In this document: one piece after another, positions 25,427 through 29,812 of the stretch
Numbering within the stretch: the first letter of the stretch is position 1
Layout of the letters: each line of letters opens with the position of its first letter
Origin: an uncultured Bacteroidales bacterium
GTDB lineage: Bacteria > Bacteroidota > Bacteroidia > Bacteroidales > UBA932
Direction of reading: 5' to 3'
Assembly (NCBI GenBank): GCA_900319485.1
Contig: ONOQ01000014.1
Span: forward strand, 1-40,572
DNA length: 40,572 nt
Notes under the pieces: generated by a model
Databases searched by the model: none
What the model saw: the letters and a program-made list of their open reading frames with translations, nothing else
What the model was told of the DNA's origin: nothing
Position numbers and translations under genes: made by a program

Positions 25427-25460
25427 AAGCCTGCAAAGTTAACAAAAACTTTGCAGGCTT
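25427..25460 (-). promoter_or_regulatory. Hairpin containing the DUF2723 promoter
   Basis: A perfect 14-bp inverted repeat (25427-25440 with 25447-25460, 6-nt loop) lies between the ACP stop and the DUF2723 start. On the minus strand it could slow or end ACP transcription, although no T-run follows. The same DNA contains TAACTTTG (25441-25434), a full TAnnTTTG match 19 nt before the DUF2723 ATG, so terminator-like hairpin and promoter overlap. Confidence 0.6.
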
Positions 25461-25467
25461 GAAAATA

Positions 25468-25707
25468 CTAAAGGGCTGCAAGGACTGCATCACATACCTC
25501 TCCTACGGTTTTGGGAAGGGGTGCGTTGTCCGGGAAGCGCATCTTGAACTTCTCCTCAGCGGCAAGGGAAAGGAGCATCATCGTGAGAGAGTCAATACCA
25601 AGGCCGGTGGTAAGAGGAGTGTCAAAAGTTACATCTGTGAGGTCCGTATTGGGCCTGATGACGGAAATAACTTCCTTAAGACCGTCAAAAACTTCCTGTC
25701 TTGTCAT
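25468..25707 (-). CDS. Acyl carrier protein (dedicated, non-FAS type)
   Basis: A 79-aa carrier protein with the phosphopantetheine attachment serine S40 in GLGIDSLTMM and a helical, acidic ACP profile. It differs from housekeeping AcpP, which has the motif LGADSLD. It begins 3 nt after the stop of the acyltransferase-ligase fusion, so the two are one operon. The obvious reading is that the ligase loads a fatty acid on this carrier and the acyltransferase domain then uses it. In Caulobacter a separate ACP (AcpR) serves ceramide synthesis, and this gene may be its counterpart. Confidence 0.9.
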   Translation of the reverse strand: MTRQEVFDGLKEVISVIRPNTDLTDVTFDTPLTTGLGIDSLTMMLLSLAAEEKFKMRFPDNAPLPKTVGEVCDAVLAAL

Positions 25708-25710
25708 AAC

Positions 25711-28371
25711 TTATACACGCGCTACTTTCATACTGCCGGTGCGCTTGAAATCTTCCGTGCGCACGGTCATCTTGATGATCCTGTGGGTGGTGGGAAGGGT
25801 TGCGTTCACCTTGTCCACAAGGGCCTGCATATAGGCGTGGATTTCCTCCGGAGTCTTGCCGTCGAATGCGGGCATAAACGGAAGGATCTCGATTGCAATT
25901 ACCTTTGCGCCGTTTAGGTCGTCTTCCTTGACCATTGCGTCACGCACGCAAGGATCTGCGTAGAAGGGCTCCTCAAGGCTCTCAGGGCTCACATTCTCAC
26001 CGTTGGGGAGGATGATGAGGTTCTTGATACGGCCGGTGATGTAGAGGAAGCCTTCGTCGTCAAAGCGGCATAGGTCGCCGGTGCGGAACCAGCCGTCCTC
26101 GGTAAAGGCCTCGGCGGTACGTACGGGATCCTTGTAGTAGCCGGAGAACACGTTGTCACCCTTTACAAGGAGTTCACCGTCAACAAGTTTAGTTTCCTGA
26201 CCGGGATAGATGCGGCCGATGGAAGTGGGCTTGCGGATAGCATCGGCATTGGCCGATGTAAGGTTTGCGGTTTCTGTAAGGCCATAGCCGAAGCAGAACT
26301 CTACGCCAAGCTTTGTGAAGATATCCACAAGGCGCGGAGGCACGTTTGCTGCGCCGGAGATGATCATGCGAAGTTCTCCGCCAAGGAACTGAGGGCCGTA
26401 CATCTTGACAAGTCCGGAAAGGATGTCGCAGATACCGGGAACAATCACCAGGAGGGTGGGCTTGATCACGGGCAGCTTGCCGATGGTTGCCTTCATATCC
26501 TCTGCGGTGAAGAGGAGGTTACCGGTATAGAAGCAGCCTGCCATGCCTGCAATGGCGCCGAATACATGGCTGAGCGGCAGGAGGGCGATATAGCGGTGCA
26601 CGCCAATCACATGACCGGGCTTGAAGATGGCGTTGTAGTTACCTCTCATAAGGGCCCTGTGGCTGAGGACTGCGCCCTTGGGAGAGCCAGTGGTGCCACC
26701 GGTGAAGAAGATGGCGGCGGGGCTTTCGGGATCTATGTCAAGGACGGCGGGGGCCTCAACGTCTGCGATTGAAGCGGCGGGAAGCACCTTGGTGCCCTGG
26801 ATGCCCTCGGTAAGAGGCATAAACTCATCACGCACGAAGATGGCGGCAATGTCAAACTTCATGCAGCAGCCAACCGCTGCGGGAGCAGGAAGCTGGGCGG
26901 GGAAGTTCATTACAACGTGTCCGGCCGATGTTATGGCAAGGTAAAGTTCTACTGCGTTCTGGCTGTTACGGTCCCAGACGGCGATATGGGAACCCTTGGG
27001 AAGACCAAGGCTGTTGATGAAGGCCCTACGGCGCGCGACACGCTTGCCAAGTTCTGCATAAGTGATGGTGTTTGTCTGATCGCTGAGAGCAGGCTTATCT
27101 GCATACTGCTTGGGAAACCAGTCCACAAACTGTCCCATTGTGGGGAAGTAAGGTAATGCTTCGAACTCCTCCTTGGGGAGCATGTTGTGGAAGTACTCTG
27201 TGTTTGTCATTATTTGTTTGGTTTTGGGTTTTGTATCTTCTGCGATGTCTTTTACGTATGAACGCCTTCTCTGGTACATACGGGTGTCAAAGTTGTCCCA
27301 GAGTGACTGCACCTTATGGTTTTCCTCCAACTGGGGATTCATAAGCATATGCTTGATGCCCAGGCGGATATAGTTTTCCATAAGGTATTTGAACATAAGG
27401 AGAGCCGCGCCCTTGGCCTGATATTCGGGAAGGATGCCGATAAGGAGGGCTTCCGTGGTATCATTGCGCTTGGGGGACAGGGCGGGAAGGAGGTGGATCC
27501 ATCCGAAGGGAAGGATCTTGCCCTTTGCCTTCCTCACTGCGGCCGATATATGCGGCATTGTGACGGTGAAGCCAACAAGTTCATCTTTCTCGTTGACCAC
27601 AAATGCCACAAGGTCCTTGTTGAGCACGGGAACGTACTGGTTCACGTAGCCGTCTATCTGCTCCTGGGTGAGTTTTGTGTACTCGTAAAGGCCGGCGAAG
27701 GCCTCGTTGAGCACGTGGAACATCTCACGGCCGCGCTTTGCCATCTTACGGAGAGTGCTGGCGGTGTAGATGCGGATGCCGAAACGCTCAGAGATCTTAT
27801 CGGCAAAAGCGAACATGGGAGGAAGTTCCGAAGGGATGTCCATCACCCTCTGGGTCCAGTCCACATCTTTGGTAAAGCCCAGGCGCTCAAGATATTCCGG
27901 ATAATAGGGATAGTTGTAGATGACGGTGAAGGGGCTCTCGTTCTCGAAGCCTTCCACAAGAAGGCCTTCCCTGTCCATATCTGTAAAGCCCAGGGGGCCT
28001 TTGATCTTGGTGGCGCCCCTTACCTTACCCCATTCTACAACGGCGTCAATGAGGGCCTTGCAAACATCGAAGTCCTCTATGAAATCAATCCATCCGAAGC
28101 GGACGGAGTTCTCATTCCACTTTTTATTGGCGTTATGATTGATGATGGCGGCTACGCGGCCGGCGATTTTACCATCCTTGTAAGCCAGGTAAAGTTCACG
28201 GTCACAGAACTCCAGGGAGGGGTTTTCGGTGCCAAGAGACTTGTATTCGTCGTCTTCAAATGCAGGGACCCATTTGTCCGATCCCTTGTACAGCTTAATG
28301 GGAAAATCTATGAATTCCTTAAGCATTTTCTTCCCGGTTACGGGAAGTACGGTTATAGCGGTTTTAGTCAT
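25711..28371 (-). CDS. Fusion: YghO/bCerS-like acyltransferase + AMP-forming acyl-ACP/CoA ligase
   Basis: An 886-aa two-part protein. Residues 1-about 375 resemble the GNAT-related YghO family, which I recall as including bacterial ceramide synthase (PIKLYKGSDKWVPAF, GRVAAIINHNANK, IKGPLGFTDMDREGLLVEGF, YNYPYYPEYLERLGF). Residues about 400-886 are an ANL adenylating enzyme: FFTGGTTGSPKG (555-566), GYGLTET (695-701), WFRTGDL (761-767) and a C-terminal catalytic lysine K882 in TGSMKVAR. An A-rich linker (about 377-387) ends at Met388, which could be an internal start. An ACP gene follows after 3 nt. I infer a route from free fatty acid to acyl-ACP to N-acylated product, plausibly ceramide; no serine palmitoyltransferase is in the window. 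The start at 28371 is set by a -7 box 6 nt upstream. Confidence 0.85.
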   Translation of the reverse strand: MTKTAITVLPVTGKKMLKEFIDFPIKLYKGSDKWVPAFEDDEYKSLGTENPSLEFCDRELYLAYKDGKIAGRVAAIINHNANKKWNENSVRFGWIDFIEDFDVCKALIDAVVEWGKVRGATKIKGPLGFTDMDREGLLVEGFENESPFTVIYNYPYYPEYLERLGFTKDVDWTQRVMDIPSELPPMFAFADKISERFGIRIYTASTLRKMAKRGREMFHVLNEAFAGLYEYTKLTQEQIDGYVNQYVPVLNKDLVAFVVNEKDELVGFTVTMPHISAAVRKAKGKILPFGWIHLLPALSPKRNDTTEALLIGILPEYQAKGAALLMFKYLMENYIRLGIKHMLMNPQLEENHKVQSLWDNFDTRMYQRRRSYVKDIAEDTKPKTKQIMTNTEYFHNMLPKEEFEALPYFPTMGQFVDWFPKQYADKPALSDQTNTITYAELGKRVARRRAFINSLGLPKGSHIAVWDRNSQNAVELYLAITSAGHVVMNFPAQLPAPAAVGCCMKFDIAAIFVRDEFMPLTEGIQGTKVLPAASIADVEAPAVLDIDPESPAAIFFTGGTTGSPKGAVLSHRALMRGNYNAIFKPGHVIGVHRYIALLPLSHVFGAIAGMAGCFYTGNLLFTAEDMKATIGKLPVIKPTLLVIVPGICDILSGLVKMYGPQFLGGELRMIISGAANVPPRLVDIFTKLGVEFCFGYGLTETANLTSANADAIRKPTSIGRIYPGQETKLVDGELLVKGDNVFSGYYKDPVRTAEAFTEDGWFRTGDLCRFDDEGFLYITGRIKNLIILPNGENVSPESLEEPFYADPCVRDAMVKEDDLNGAKVIAIEILPFMPAFDGKTPEEIHAYMQALVDKVNATLPTTHRIIKMTVRTEDFKRTGSMKVARV

Positions 28372-28377
28372 ATCGTA

Positions 28378-28385
28378 CAAAGATA
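28378..28385 (-). promoter_or_regulatory. -7 promoter element of the acyltransferase-ligase gene
   Basis: TATCTTTG on the minus strand lies 6 nt (TACGAT) before the ATG at 28371, predicting a leaderless mRNA. It sits 5 nt beyond the menG stop codon, separating this operon from the upstream one. Confidence 0.65.
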
Positions 28386-28389
28386 GCAA

Positions 28390-29088
28390 TTATTTCTCAC
28401 CTACGAAAAGCCTGCACAGTCCAAAAGTGAAATTCCTATGCCTAACGGAGTGAAAACCAGCCCTTTCCATCATGGCGCAGAAGGTCTCAGGCCGAGGGAA
28501 GGCATATACGGATTCAGGAAGATAACGGTACGCGGCGCGGTTTCCGGAGATGAGCCCGCCGATAAGGGGCAGGATGTGCCGGAAATATATATCGTAGAGT
28601 GATTTGACAAAGCGGTTGTCCGGGATTCCCAGTTCCAGGATCACGGCGCGGCCGCCGGGCTTCAGGACGCGGAGGAATTCTGCAAGGCCCTGCTTCCTGT
28701 CTTCGAAGTTCCTTATGCCGAAAGCGCAGGTGACGCGGTGGAAAGTATCGGCCTCAAAAGGCATACGGAGGGCATCGGCCTGCAGGAGTTTTATTCGGTC
28801 GTGGACGCCTTCGCGGGCGGCTTTCCGCATCAGGGGCTCCATCATTCCGGCCGATATGTCTATGCCGGTGACCCTTCCGCCGGGCTCCATAGCCTTTGCT
28901 ATTGCGATAGTGCTGTCACCGGTGCCGCAGGCTACGTCCAGGATCTGCTGCTGCGTGCCGTCCACAATCTCCTTCAGGGCCTTTTTCCGCCAGATATTGT
29001 CAATACCCAGGGACATAAGGTGGTTGAGGCGGTCGTAGGAAGGCGCGATGTCGTCGAACATCTTCTCTATTTTCTCTTTCTTTGGCAT
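28390..29088 (-). CDS. menG: Demethylmenaquinone methyltransferase (MenG/UbiE)
   Basis: A 232-aa SAM-dependent enzyme that performs the last methylation in menaquinone synthesis. FDDIAPSYDRLNHLMSLGID is the typical UbiE/MenG start, ILDVACGTGDSTIAI is SAM motif I, GIDISAGMM follows, and CAFGIRNFEDRKQGLAEFLRVLKPGG-type segments match the family. It is the last gene of the minus-strand series. It starts 2 nt after the yidD stop. In anaerobic Bacteroidales menaquinone serves fumarate respiration. The name menG is preferred over ubiE because the phylum makes menaquinone. Confidence 0.94.
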   Translation of the reverse strand: MPKKEKIEKMFDDIAPSYDRLNHLMSLGIDNIWRKKALKEIVDGTQQQILDVACGTGDSTIAIAKAMEPGGRVTGIDISAGMMEPLMRKAAREGVHDRIKLLQADALRMPFEADTFHRVTCAFGIRNFEDRKQGLAEFLRVLKPGGRAVILELGIPDNRFVKSLYDIYFRHILPLIGGLISGNRAAYRYLPESVYAFPRPETFCAMMERAGFHSVRHRNFTFGLCRLFVGEK

Positions 29089-29090
29089 AA

Positions 29091-29327
29091 CTAAGGCACT
29101 GGATCATAACCGCTTCCGCCCCAGGGATGGCACCTCAGGAGGCGCCTCACCGTAAGGTACAGCCCTTTGAACGGGCCGTGCTTCCGGAACGCCTCCAGGG
29201 CGTACTGGGAGCAGGTGGGGGTGAATCGGCAGGTAGGGGGCGTAAAAGGGCTTATGCACACCTGGTAGAACTTTATAAGCACCACCGCCGGAAAAATAAG
29301 TATCTTTTTAACCGTATCCTTTAACAT
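29091..29327 (-). CDS. yidD: Membrane protein insertion efficiency factor YidD
   Basis: A 78-aa protein with the YidD signature: [34 protein letters not shown] and [18 protein letters not shown] hydrophobic, amphipathic N-terminus binds the inner membrane near YidC. It overlaps the end of rnpA by 7 nt, the common rnpA-yidD arrangement, implying coupled translation. Confidence 0.95.
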
Positions 29328-29812
29328 ATCTTCTGGAGGACGGCAGTCATATCGGCATAAATCACCTCATAAGGCAGGACCTCCGGAGCGGTGTAGATGA
29401 AAAGGATATCCACGGGGGCCGATACAAGATCCTTCTGGCGCCGATACGCCTCCCTTATGCGCCGCTTCAGCAGATTGCGTTTCACCGCGCGCTTGAACAG
29501 CCGCTTTGGCACTGACACCACAATCCTGGAGGCATCTGCGTGCGTGTGGATGGCGTTGCCGGAGGAAAATTGGTTTTTCGGGCACTGTCCCGAAAAATAA
29601 TTTTCTTCCGGCGCCAGGGGGGCAGATGCCCGGTCGGGGCCGGGCATGACGGATGCCGGGGCGGAGACGGGCATGGCAGATGCCGGGGCCTGGGGCCGAA
29701 GGATGTATTTACAACGGAGGCAGCCGGAAGAAAGGCCCTTTCCGCGTTCAAAGAGAGCGGAGACAGCCGTCTGGCCGCTCAGGCGCTCGCTTTTAGGAAG
29801 GGTCTGAGGCAT
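29321..29812 (-). CDS. rnpA: Ribonuclease P protein component with repeat-derived insertion
   Basis: A 163-aa protein cofactor of RNase P, which trims tRNA 5' ends. It begins LPKSERLSG, normal for the family, and has the RNA-binding core [29 protein letters not shown] (written here in parts: VSVPKR, then [18 protein letters not shown]) at about 96-125. Between them, about residues 41-92 form an insertion made of low-complexity sequence (APASAMP/APASVMP) and [17 protein letters not shown]. The underlying DNA is palindromic repeats (29559-29611, 29624-29690). Usual length is nearer 110-140 aa. The essential core is intact, so the gene is probably functional. It starts 1 nt into the hemD stop (TAATG). 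Confidence 0.9.
29559..29611. repeat. 53-bp hairpin element inside rnpA
   Basis: An imperfect inverted repeat: the left arm (29559-29582, starting CCGGAGGAAAATT) and the right arm (29589-29611, ending AATTTTCTTCCGG) match at about 21 of 24 positions around loop CACTGT. It is translated in frame on the minus strand as about 18 residues. It is a different sequence family from the CGTC palindromes beside it. Confidence 0.75.
29624..29690 (-). repeat. 28-bp palindromic repeat (copy 3, in rnpA) plus degenerate copies
   Basis: 29651-29624 on the minus strand: CGTC, arm ATGCCCGG, 6-nt loop ccccga, arm CCGGGCAT, CT. It fits the family exactly, with arms different from copies 1 and 2. It is read as V-M-P-G-P-D-R-A-S. 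To its right, 29652-29690 holds one or two decayed relatives (ATGCC...GGGCAT, GATGCCGGGG) that encode the similar peptide P-A-S-A-M-P-V-S. Confidence 0.8.

Follow-up and report, generated by a model that had tools for sequence, protein, structure and literature searches.

The Aas protein of Escherichia coli carries an acyltransferase domain and then an acyl-acyl carrier protein (acyl-ACP) synthetase domain in one chain. In bacterial ceramide synthesis, YghO of E. coli BL21 has been assigned as the acyltransferase of the pathway (the aca gene product), and AasR and AcpR of Caulobacter have been shown to feed serine palmitoyltransferase (SPT; PMC9386255), while BF9343_4218 of Bacteroides fragilis has been used as a ceramide synthase (CerS) reference (PMC10865984). 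The SPT, CerS and CerR genes of sphingolipid-producing Bacteroidota are stated not to lie close together (PMC11334938). The stretch of DNA analyzed here (the window; 40,572 nucleotides of contig ONOQ01000014.1, from an uncultured Bacteroidales bacterium) contains a gene in which a tandem GNAT domain of the YghO/bacterial ceramide synthase (bCerS) type is fused to an AMP-forming acyl ligase, with a dedicated ACP gene directly downstream (Table 1). On balance, the fused gene probably encodes a bifunctional acyl-ACP synthetase/N-acyltransferase that works along the lines of Aas and N-acylates a long-chain base. It shares with Aas the order of acyltransferase and ligase in a single chain, but has a tandem GNAT in place of the PlsC-type O-acyltransferase and a separate ACP gene of its own. 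The parts are known; their arrangement in a single chain was not found described, no account of a ceramide synthase fused to an acyl-ACP ligase appearing in the literature searched by title and start of abstract.

The fused gene is confirmed as an observation. Among ligase-bearing genomes, it is found in two, that of the window (G000, a draft of 91 contigs; other G numbers denote comparison genomes and L numbers fetched loci) and G005, which are sister species in the GNAT tree (ultrafast bootstrap, UFBoot, 100). The junction is in frame in both and the linkers differ; an assembly gap of Ns breaks the G005 ligase away from the junction. The relative G011 keeps the two genes unfused and in tandem, the GNAT gene ending in TAA and the ligase ATG following 13 nt on, so that losing the GNAT stop codon would readily account for the fusion; Met388, after the linker, is probably the start of the formerly separate ligase. 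The draft state of the window's genome and the unfused pair in G011 would fit an assembly or sequencing artefact that joined two adjacent genes. Such an artefact is nonetheless very improbable, given an in-frame junction in two species with different linkers, and a sequencing error is unlikely because the sister species shares the fusion and the relative retains separate tandem genes. In eight pairwise comparisons, whose synonymous sites were close to saturation, ratios of non-synonymous to synonymous substitution (dN/dS) are 0.08-0.16 for both domains; by this measure both halves are under purifying selection and the arrangement is not a product of chance. No fusion in a named cultured organism was found among the genomes examined.

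A preliminary description of the locus had read the N-terminal half as a YghO/bCerS-like GNAT, the C-terminal half as a complete AMP-forming ligase with its final lysine and the next gene as a dedicated ACP, and all three assignments are borne out. The N-terminal half is homologous to YghO of E. coli BL21 over its full length (28% identity over 379 aligned columns, E 4e-46), and profile comparison with hhalign gives a probability of 100% over 368 columns. Pfam detects Acetyltransf_1 weakly (26 bits), and the GNAT profile, searched against the sequences of solved structures, gave no match below E 0.12; by fold, Foldseek against the PDB matches the domain to tandem GNAT N-acetyltransferases (best E 1.6e-14, 12% identity). 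The domain keeps all 22 columns that are conserved in at least 95% of 156 family members. In its homology to YghO, its conserved family residues and its occurrence in an SPT-bearing genome, the fused GNAT resembles described bCerS/aca proteins (Caulobacter crescentus CCNA_01212, BL21 YghO and B. fragilis BF9343_4218), and it differs from them in being paralogous to the Bacteroides gene, in being joined to a ligase and in its genomic setting, where CerR has not been found (see below).

The C-terminal half matches AMP-binding (181 bits) and AMP-binding_C_3 (22.5 bits) in Pfam. It contains what we take to be the P-loop (FFTGGTTGSPKGA), the GYGLTET motif and the catalytic C-terminal lysine (Lys882), within RTGSMKVARV, and by these features it is a complete AMP-forming ligase; a family scan returned FadD-type ligases as its best matches. 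Among 15 aligned ACPs from such loci the DSL triplet is invariant, and 11 have GIDSL exactly. A ligase with its own small ACP in SPT-bearing organisms recalls the Rhodobacterial AasR-AcpR pair. Unlike AasR, the window ligase is shorter (499 versus 562 amino acids, aa) and divergent, aligning poorly with BL21 AasR as judged by alignment and family scan rather than by a tree, and BL21 AasR carries a fatty acyl-AMP ligase (FAAL-type) annotation, in contrast to the FadD-type matches of the window ligase. Furthermore, AasR and AcpR feed SPT, whereas the window ligase and ACP are genomically linked to a GNAT.

This linkage extends well beyond the fused gene. At a criterion of at least 50% identity, the ligase occurs in 18 Bacteroidales genomes: 11 of 25 in the window's genus, five others in a 198-genome sample of the order, 1 of 41 in the Segatella copri family and one (L235) from a wider contig scan. 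With genes of the relatives' loci called by a codon-scored caller, an ACP gene adjoins the ligase in all 18; that of G011 is on a small contig bearing the ligase end. A GNAT of type A, that of the fused gene, is present in 13 of these genomes and lies near the ligase in 11: fused in G000 and G005, in tandem in G011, in the order ligase-ACP-GNAT in G220, convergent with the ligase in G003, G019 and G009 (one gene intervening in G009), and divergent from it in G008, G015, G027 and L235. The two are on separate contigs in G010 and G014, and type A occurs without the ligase in G006 and G143. Within the genus, 10 of 25 genomes have both, one and one have a single member of the pair and 13 have neither (p 3e-5), in a table drawn from matches listed down to about E 1e-29 which, like the other co-occurrence statistics given here, ignores shared ancestry and draft incompleteness. 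Because the linkage of GNAT and ligase persists through five kinds of arrangement, a joint function is strongly supported. The gene between GNAT and ACP in G009 (L053 7544-9010) is flavin amine-oxidase-like (PF01593).

The same pattern bears on the proposal that SPT is supplied by the ligase and ACP, in the manner of Caulobacter AasR and AcpR, with the GNAT merely carried on the same chain. A published Rhodobacterial precedent exists (PMC9386255), and most of these genomes contain SPT. Against this, physical linkage of the ligase-ACP pair to the GNAT is seen in 11 of 13 genomes and to SPT in one, the ligase shows no AasR-like alignment, and SPT is present in 7 of the 14 genus genomes that have no ligase, which leaves the proposal quite improbable.

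The window's genome encodes three YghO-type GNATs, which fall into clade A (the fused domain), clade B (C76:41015) and clade C (C76:80518). The trees left out duplicate copies and GNAT pieces shorter than 330 aa or 300 aa, depending on the tree, and GNATs without a fetched locus were left unplaced (16 of 45 in the S. copri family, including that of G267). Clade B holds 84 sequences (support 1.0), among them those of Bacteroides finegoldii and Phocaeicola massiliensis, both S. copri GNATs and C76:41015; the fused domain falls outside it. YghO-type GNATs (E<=1e-50) are found in 41 of 41 genomes of the S. copri family, with one copy in 37 and two in 4, and all 29 of those fetched as loci fall in clade B. 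Since the S. copri-family and Bacteroides GNATs that were placed lie there, B. fragilis BF9343_4218 most likely belongs to clade B as well, an assignment made through its relatives. By tree position, the fused domain is a paralogue, whereas C76:41015 is the orthologue of the Bacteroides/Segatella gene and is more likely than the fused gene to encode the standard ceramide synthase. Clade A (UFBoot 100) groups with clades D and E, apart from B (local support 0.985; UFBoot 85 in another tree); the deep branching among GNAT clades is weakly supported (UFBoot 39-85), and only this grouping is claimed. Clades D and E hold the GNATs of Bacteroidales SPT-GNAT-CerR operons (G035, G063, G073, G118, G189, G203, G207 and L224).

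Clade C has a different genetic setting. C76:80518 is part of a FakA - DegV/FakB - GNAT - PlsX - ACP operon (L013 4059-8900, equal to C76:78058-82899), and in the clade-C loci of the genus FakA, FakB and GNAT are together in 8 of 8, with PlsX and ACP seen in 7. With ligase and ACP beside clade A, and Fak, PlsX and ACP beside clade C, at least two of the three paralogues therefore have a private acyl-ACP route. A further GNAT clade adjoins a CDP-alcohol phosphatidyltransferase in L122, L045 and L188 (G027, G020 and G017), possibly representing a phosphosphingolipid head-group step.

Sphingolipid synthesis is the most plausible context for the fused gene. The genome encodes an SPT (C88:34325-35548). 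At the position equivalent to Lys281 of SulA, found by counting from the pyridoxal phosphate lysine, this protein has Ala, as do 9 further Bacteroidales SPTs, and BL21 has Ser. A Lys at this position is described as marking the cysteate-using SulA, versus Ala in Spt (PMC9304779), and synthesis of a sulfonolipid in place of a sphingolipid is unlikely. SPT was detected in 12 of 14 type-A genomes tested, a count standing apart from the L235 genome; the two in which it was not, G010 and G015, are 63% and 77% complete. Across the 198-genome order sample, SPT is present in 41 of 49 genomes with a YghO-type GNAT of any clade (E<=1e-95) versus 28 of 149 without, a comparison that carries no ancestry correction and whose cut-off favours GNATs resembling the fused one. 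In the genome of another family, G220, the ligase, ACP and type-A GNAT are followed, 48 nt on and in convergent orientation, by a short-chain reductase and SPT, and this arrangement is the best single evidence linking the trio to sphingolipids. The G220-type reductase also adjoins SPT in G027, G008, G011 and G006, and lies apart from SPT in G009. Two SPT types occur in the genus, one 76-94% identical to that of G000 in six other genomes and one 52-58% identical in eight, which suggests replacement by transfer.

The preliminary description had pointed to SPT and CerR as genes to seek in the genome, and only the first was recovered. CerR was found in none of 10 type-A genomes searched, G000 among them (Bacteroidales CerR query, E<=1e-15; G006, G010, G014, G015 and the L235 genome lay outside the search), with S. 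copri, as a control, giving a 43% match. SPT-GNAT-CerR-like operons occur in other Bacteroidales loci (L035, L154, L155, L156, L157, L083, L193 and L224), and the CerR-like genes in SPT operons, which belong to a large epimerase family, share 23-27% identity with BL21 CerR. With CerR not found and SPT beside a reductase in several type-A genomes, the gene content points to an order in which SPT and a 3-ketosphinganine reductase would yield sphinganine before N-acylation; such reduction before acylation would resemble the order in eukaryotes, and it would presumably apply to G000 as well. BT_0972 provides the comparison for the 3-ketosphinganine reduction step (PMC9278070).

The proposal that the locus is simply the Caulobacter trio in fused form is rejected as it was stated, considering the paralogous GNAT, the ligase unlike AasR, the CerR result and the orthology of C76:41015 to the Bacteroides gene. 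The ceramide product proposed with it stays plausible in view of SPT in the genome and the G220 linkage, with the qualification that the fused GNAT is a paralogue and that the acceptor amine is one that we infer. In the mechanism favoured here, the C-terminal ligase would convert ATP and a free fatty acid, recycled or scavenged, to acyl-AMP, and the acyl group would then be loaded on the phosphopantetheine of the neighbouring ACP. From acyl-ACP, the tandem GNAT would take the chain and attach it to a long-chain base at the amino group, following the logic of Aas with a GNAT replacing the PlsC domain. Sphinganine is a likelier base than 3-ketosphinganine, and dihydroceramide the likelier product, because CerR was not found and several SPTs adjoin a short-chain reductase. 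The widespread Bacteroidales CerS orthologue would work alongside the fused enzyme and would not be replaced by it.

Several observations weigh against this mechanism. Ceramide synthesis in this genome need not depend on the fused GNAT, since it encodes two more of the YghO type, one belonging to the clade of the Bacteroides gene. YghO itself is a distant reference, keeping 16 of the 22 conserved family columns and departing from 6. Within the genus, the association with SPT is no more than suggestive for type A (9 of 11 with versus 6 of 14 without, p 0.06) and weaker still for the ligase (8 of 11 versus 7 of 14, p 0.23). Among the 13 genomes with both parts, the trio adjoins SPT only in G220, and the G220-type reductase was not found in G000, where only relatives of 42% identity occur. 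In a rival reading, the GNAT, using acyl-ACP from its own ligase, N-acylates some other amine, such as an amino-acid lipid precursor. The distinct neighbourhoods of the three paralogues suggest divided acceptors, and no SPT was detected in the incomplete type-A genomes G010 and G015; yet the G220 trio abuts SPT and a reductase, SPT accompanies type A in most genomes tested, and the fused GNAT groups with GNATs of SPT operons, so that another acceptor appears rather unlikely.

The remaining points of this kind concern the ligase and ACP. An ACP gene lies next to the ligase in 18 of 18 loci, but sequence cannot tell ACP from CoA as the substrate. The ligase-ACP pair adjoins a PlsC-like acyltransferase in G018, G223, G102 and G042, in which neither a type-A GNAT nor a true SPT was found; G267, the fifth ligase genome outside the type-A set, enters the counts for ligase and ACP only. 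Homologues of the ligase (53%) and ACP (44%) are also present on a megaplasmid of the Firmicute Lachnospira eligens ATCC 27750 (L299, NC_012780.1 267733-287196), clustered there with genes for two lysophospholipid acyltransferases, a patatin and an SGNH hydrolase. Since the pair occurs without type A or true SPT, and in L. eligens, it is not specific to sphingolipids. The fused gene shares its ligase and ACP with these modules and differs in its partner, a GNAT instead of a PlsC-like protein; no family GNAT adjoins the modules in the fetched stretches. The ligase and ACP are thus a portable acyl-charging module joined to different acyltransferases. Such neighbours, and the domain order that the fused protein has in common with Aas, would also suit lipid remodelling, in which ligase and ACP recharge released membrane fatty acids and the GNAT re-acylates a lyso-lipid without forming new ceramide. 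This is unlikely: no PlsC-like partner was found beside a type-A GNAT in the fetched stretches, the GNAT fold matches N-acyltransferases, and re-acylating a lyso-ceramide would itself amount to N-acylating a long-chain base, as in the favoured mechanism.

Table 1. Features of the fused locus, with positions in the window.
Feature	Position	Strand	Details
Fused gene, 886 aa: YghO/bCerS-type tandem GNAT, linker and AMP-forming acyl ligase	25711..28371	(-)	
GNAT domain (YghO/bCerS family, clade A), residues 1-380	27232..28371	(-)	Tandem-GNAT fold, AlphaFold pLDDT 91.5
Interdomain linker, residues 381-387	27211..27231	(-)	pLDDT <50 at 381-399 of 887-residue model
AMP-forming ligase domain, residues 388-886	25714..27210	(-)	RTGSMKVARV catalytic-lysine motif at C-terminus
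Dedicated ACP, 79 aa, GIDSL phosphopantetheine site	25468..25707	(-)	Starts 3 nt past fusion stop
Hairpin with 14-bp perfect stem, just 3' of ACP	25427..25460		-23 kcal/mol, z -6.7, 0/200 shuffles as stable
Putative promoter box, TATCTTTG, in 18-nt ubiE-fusion gap	28378..28385	(-)	Motif match only, weak

The reading frame of the fusion could extend over 25711-28389 with a TTG start at 28389, the ATG at 28371 being more likely. The gene begins 18 nt after ubiE (28390-29088), and in this gap TATCTTTG fits the Bacteroidetes -7 box, TAnnTTTG, so the fusion may, on this weak match, have a promoter of its own. The strong hairpin directly 3' of the ACP probably marks the end of the transcript, after the fusion and ACP. 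A full-length model of 887 residues is poor (mean predicted local distance difference test score, pLDDT, 66; predicted template modelling score, pTM, 0.48), its alignment having held just two other ligase rows; the secondary structure of its N-terminal half agrees with the good separate domain model. Elsewhere in the window, an RnpA homologue (29321-29812) has a Pro/Ala-rich insert preceding its conserved domain.

To our knowledge, the source of the N-acyl chain of Bacteroidales sphingolipids is poorly defined. The fusion and its ACP form a two-gene system that is a direct candidate for the step by which free fatty acids are loaded into ceramides. More tentatively, Bacteroidales may run parallel ceramide-synthase-type GNATs, each with its own means of ACP charging, by ligase, by fatty acid kinase with PlsX and ACP, or through ordinary synthesis of fatty acids. 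On this view, the choice of fatty acid for the N-acyl chain of ceramide (from the host, from the diet, recycled or newly made) would lie with the charging module, and the fusion would channel free fatty acid straight into ceramide. Sphingolipids of gut Bacteroidales are described as entering host metabolism (PMC7235224). For annotation, YghO-type GNATs form a multi-paralogue family in Bacteroidales, in which a single best-hit 'bCerS' assignment can pick the wrong gene.

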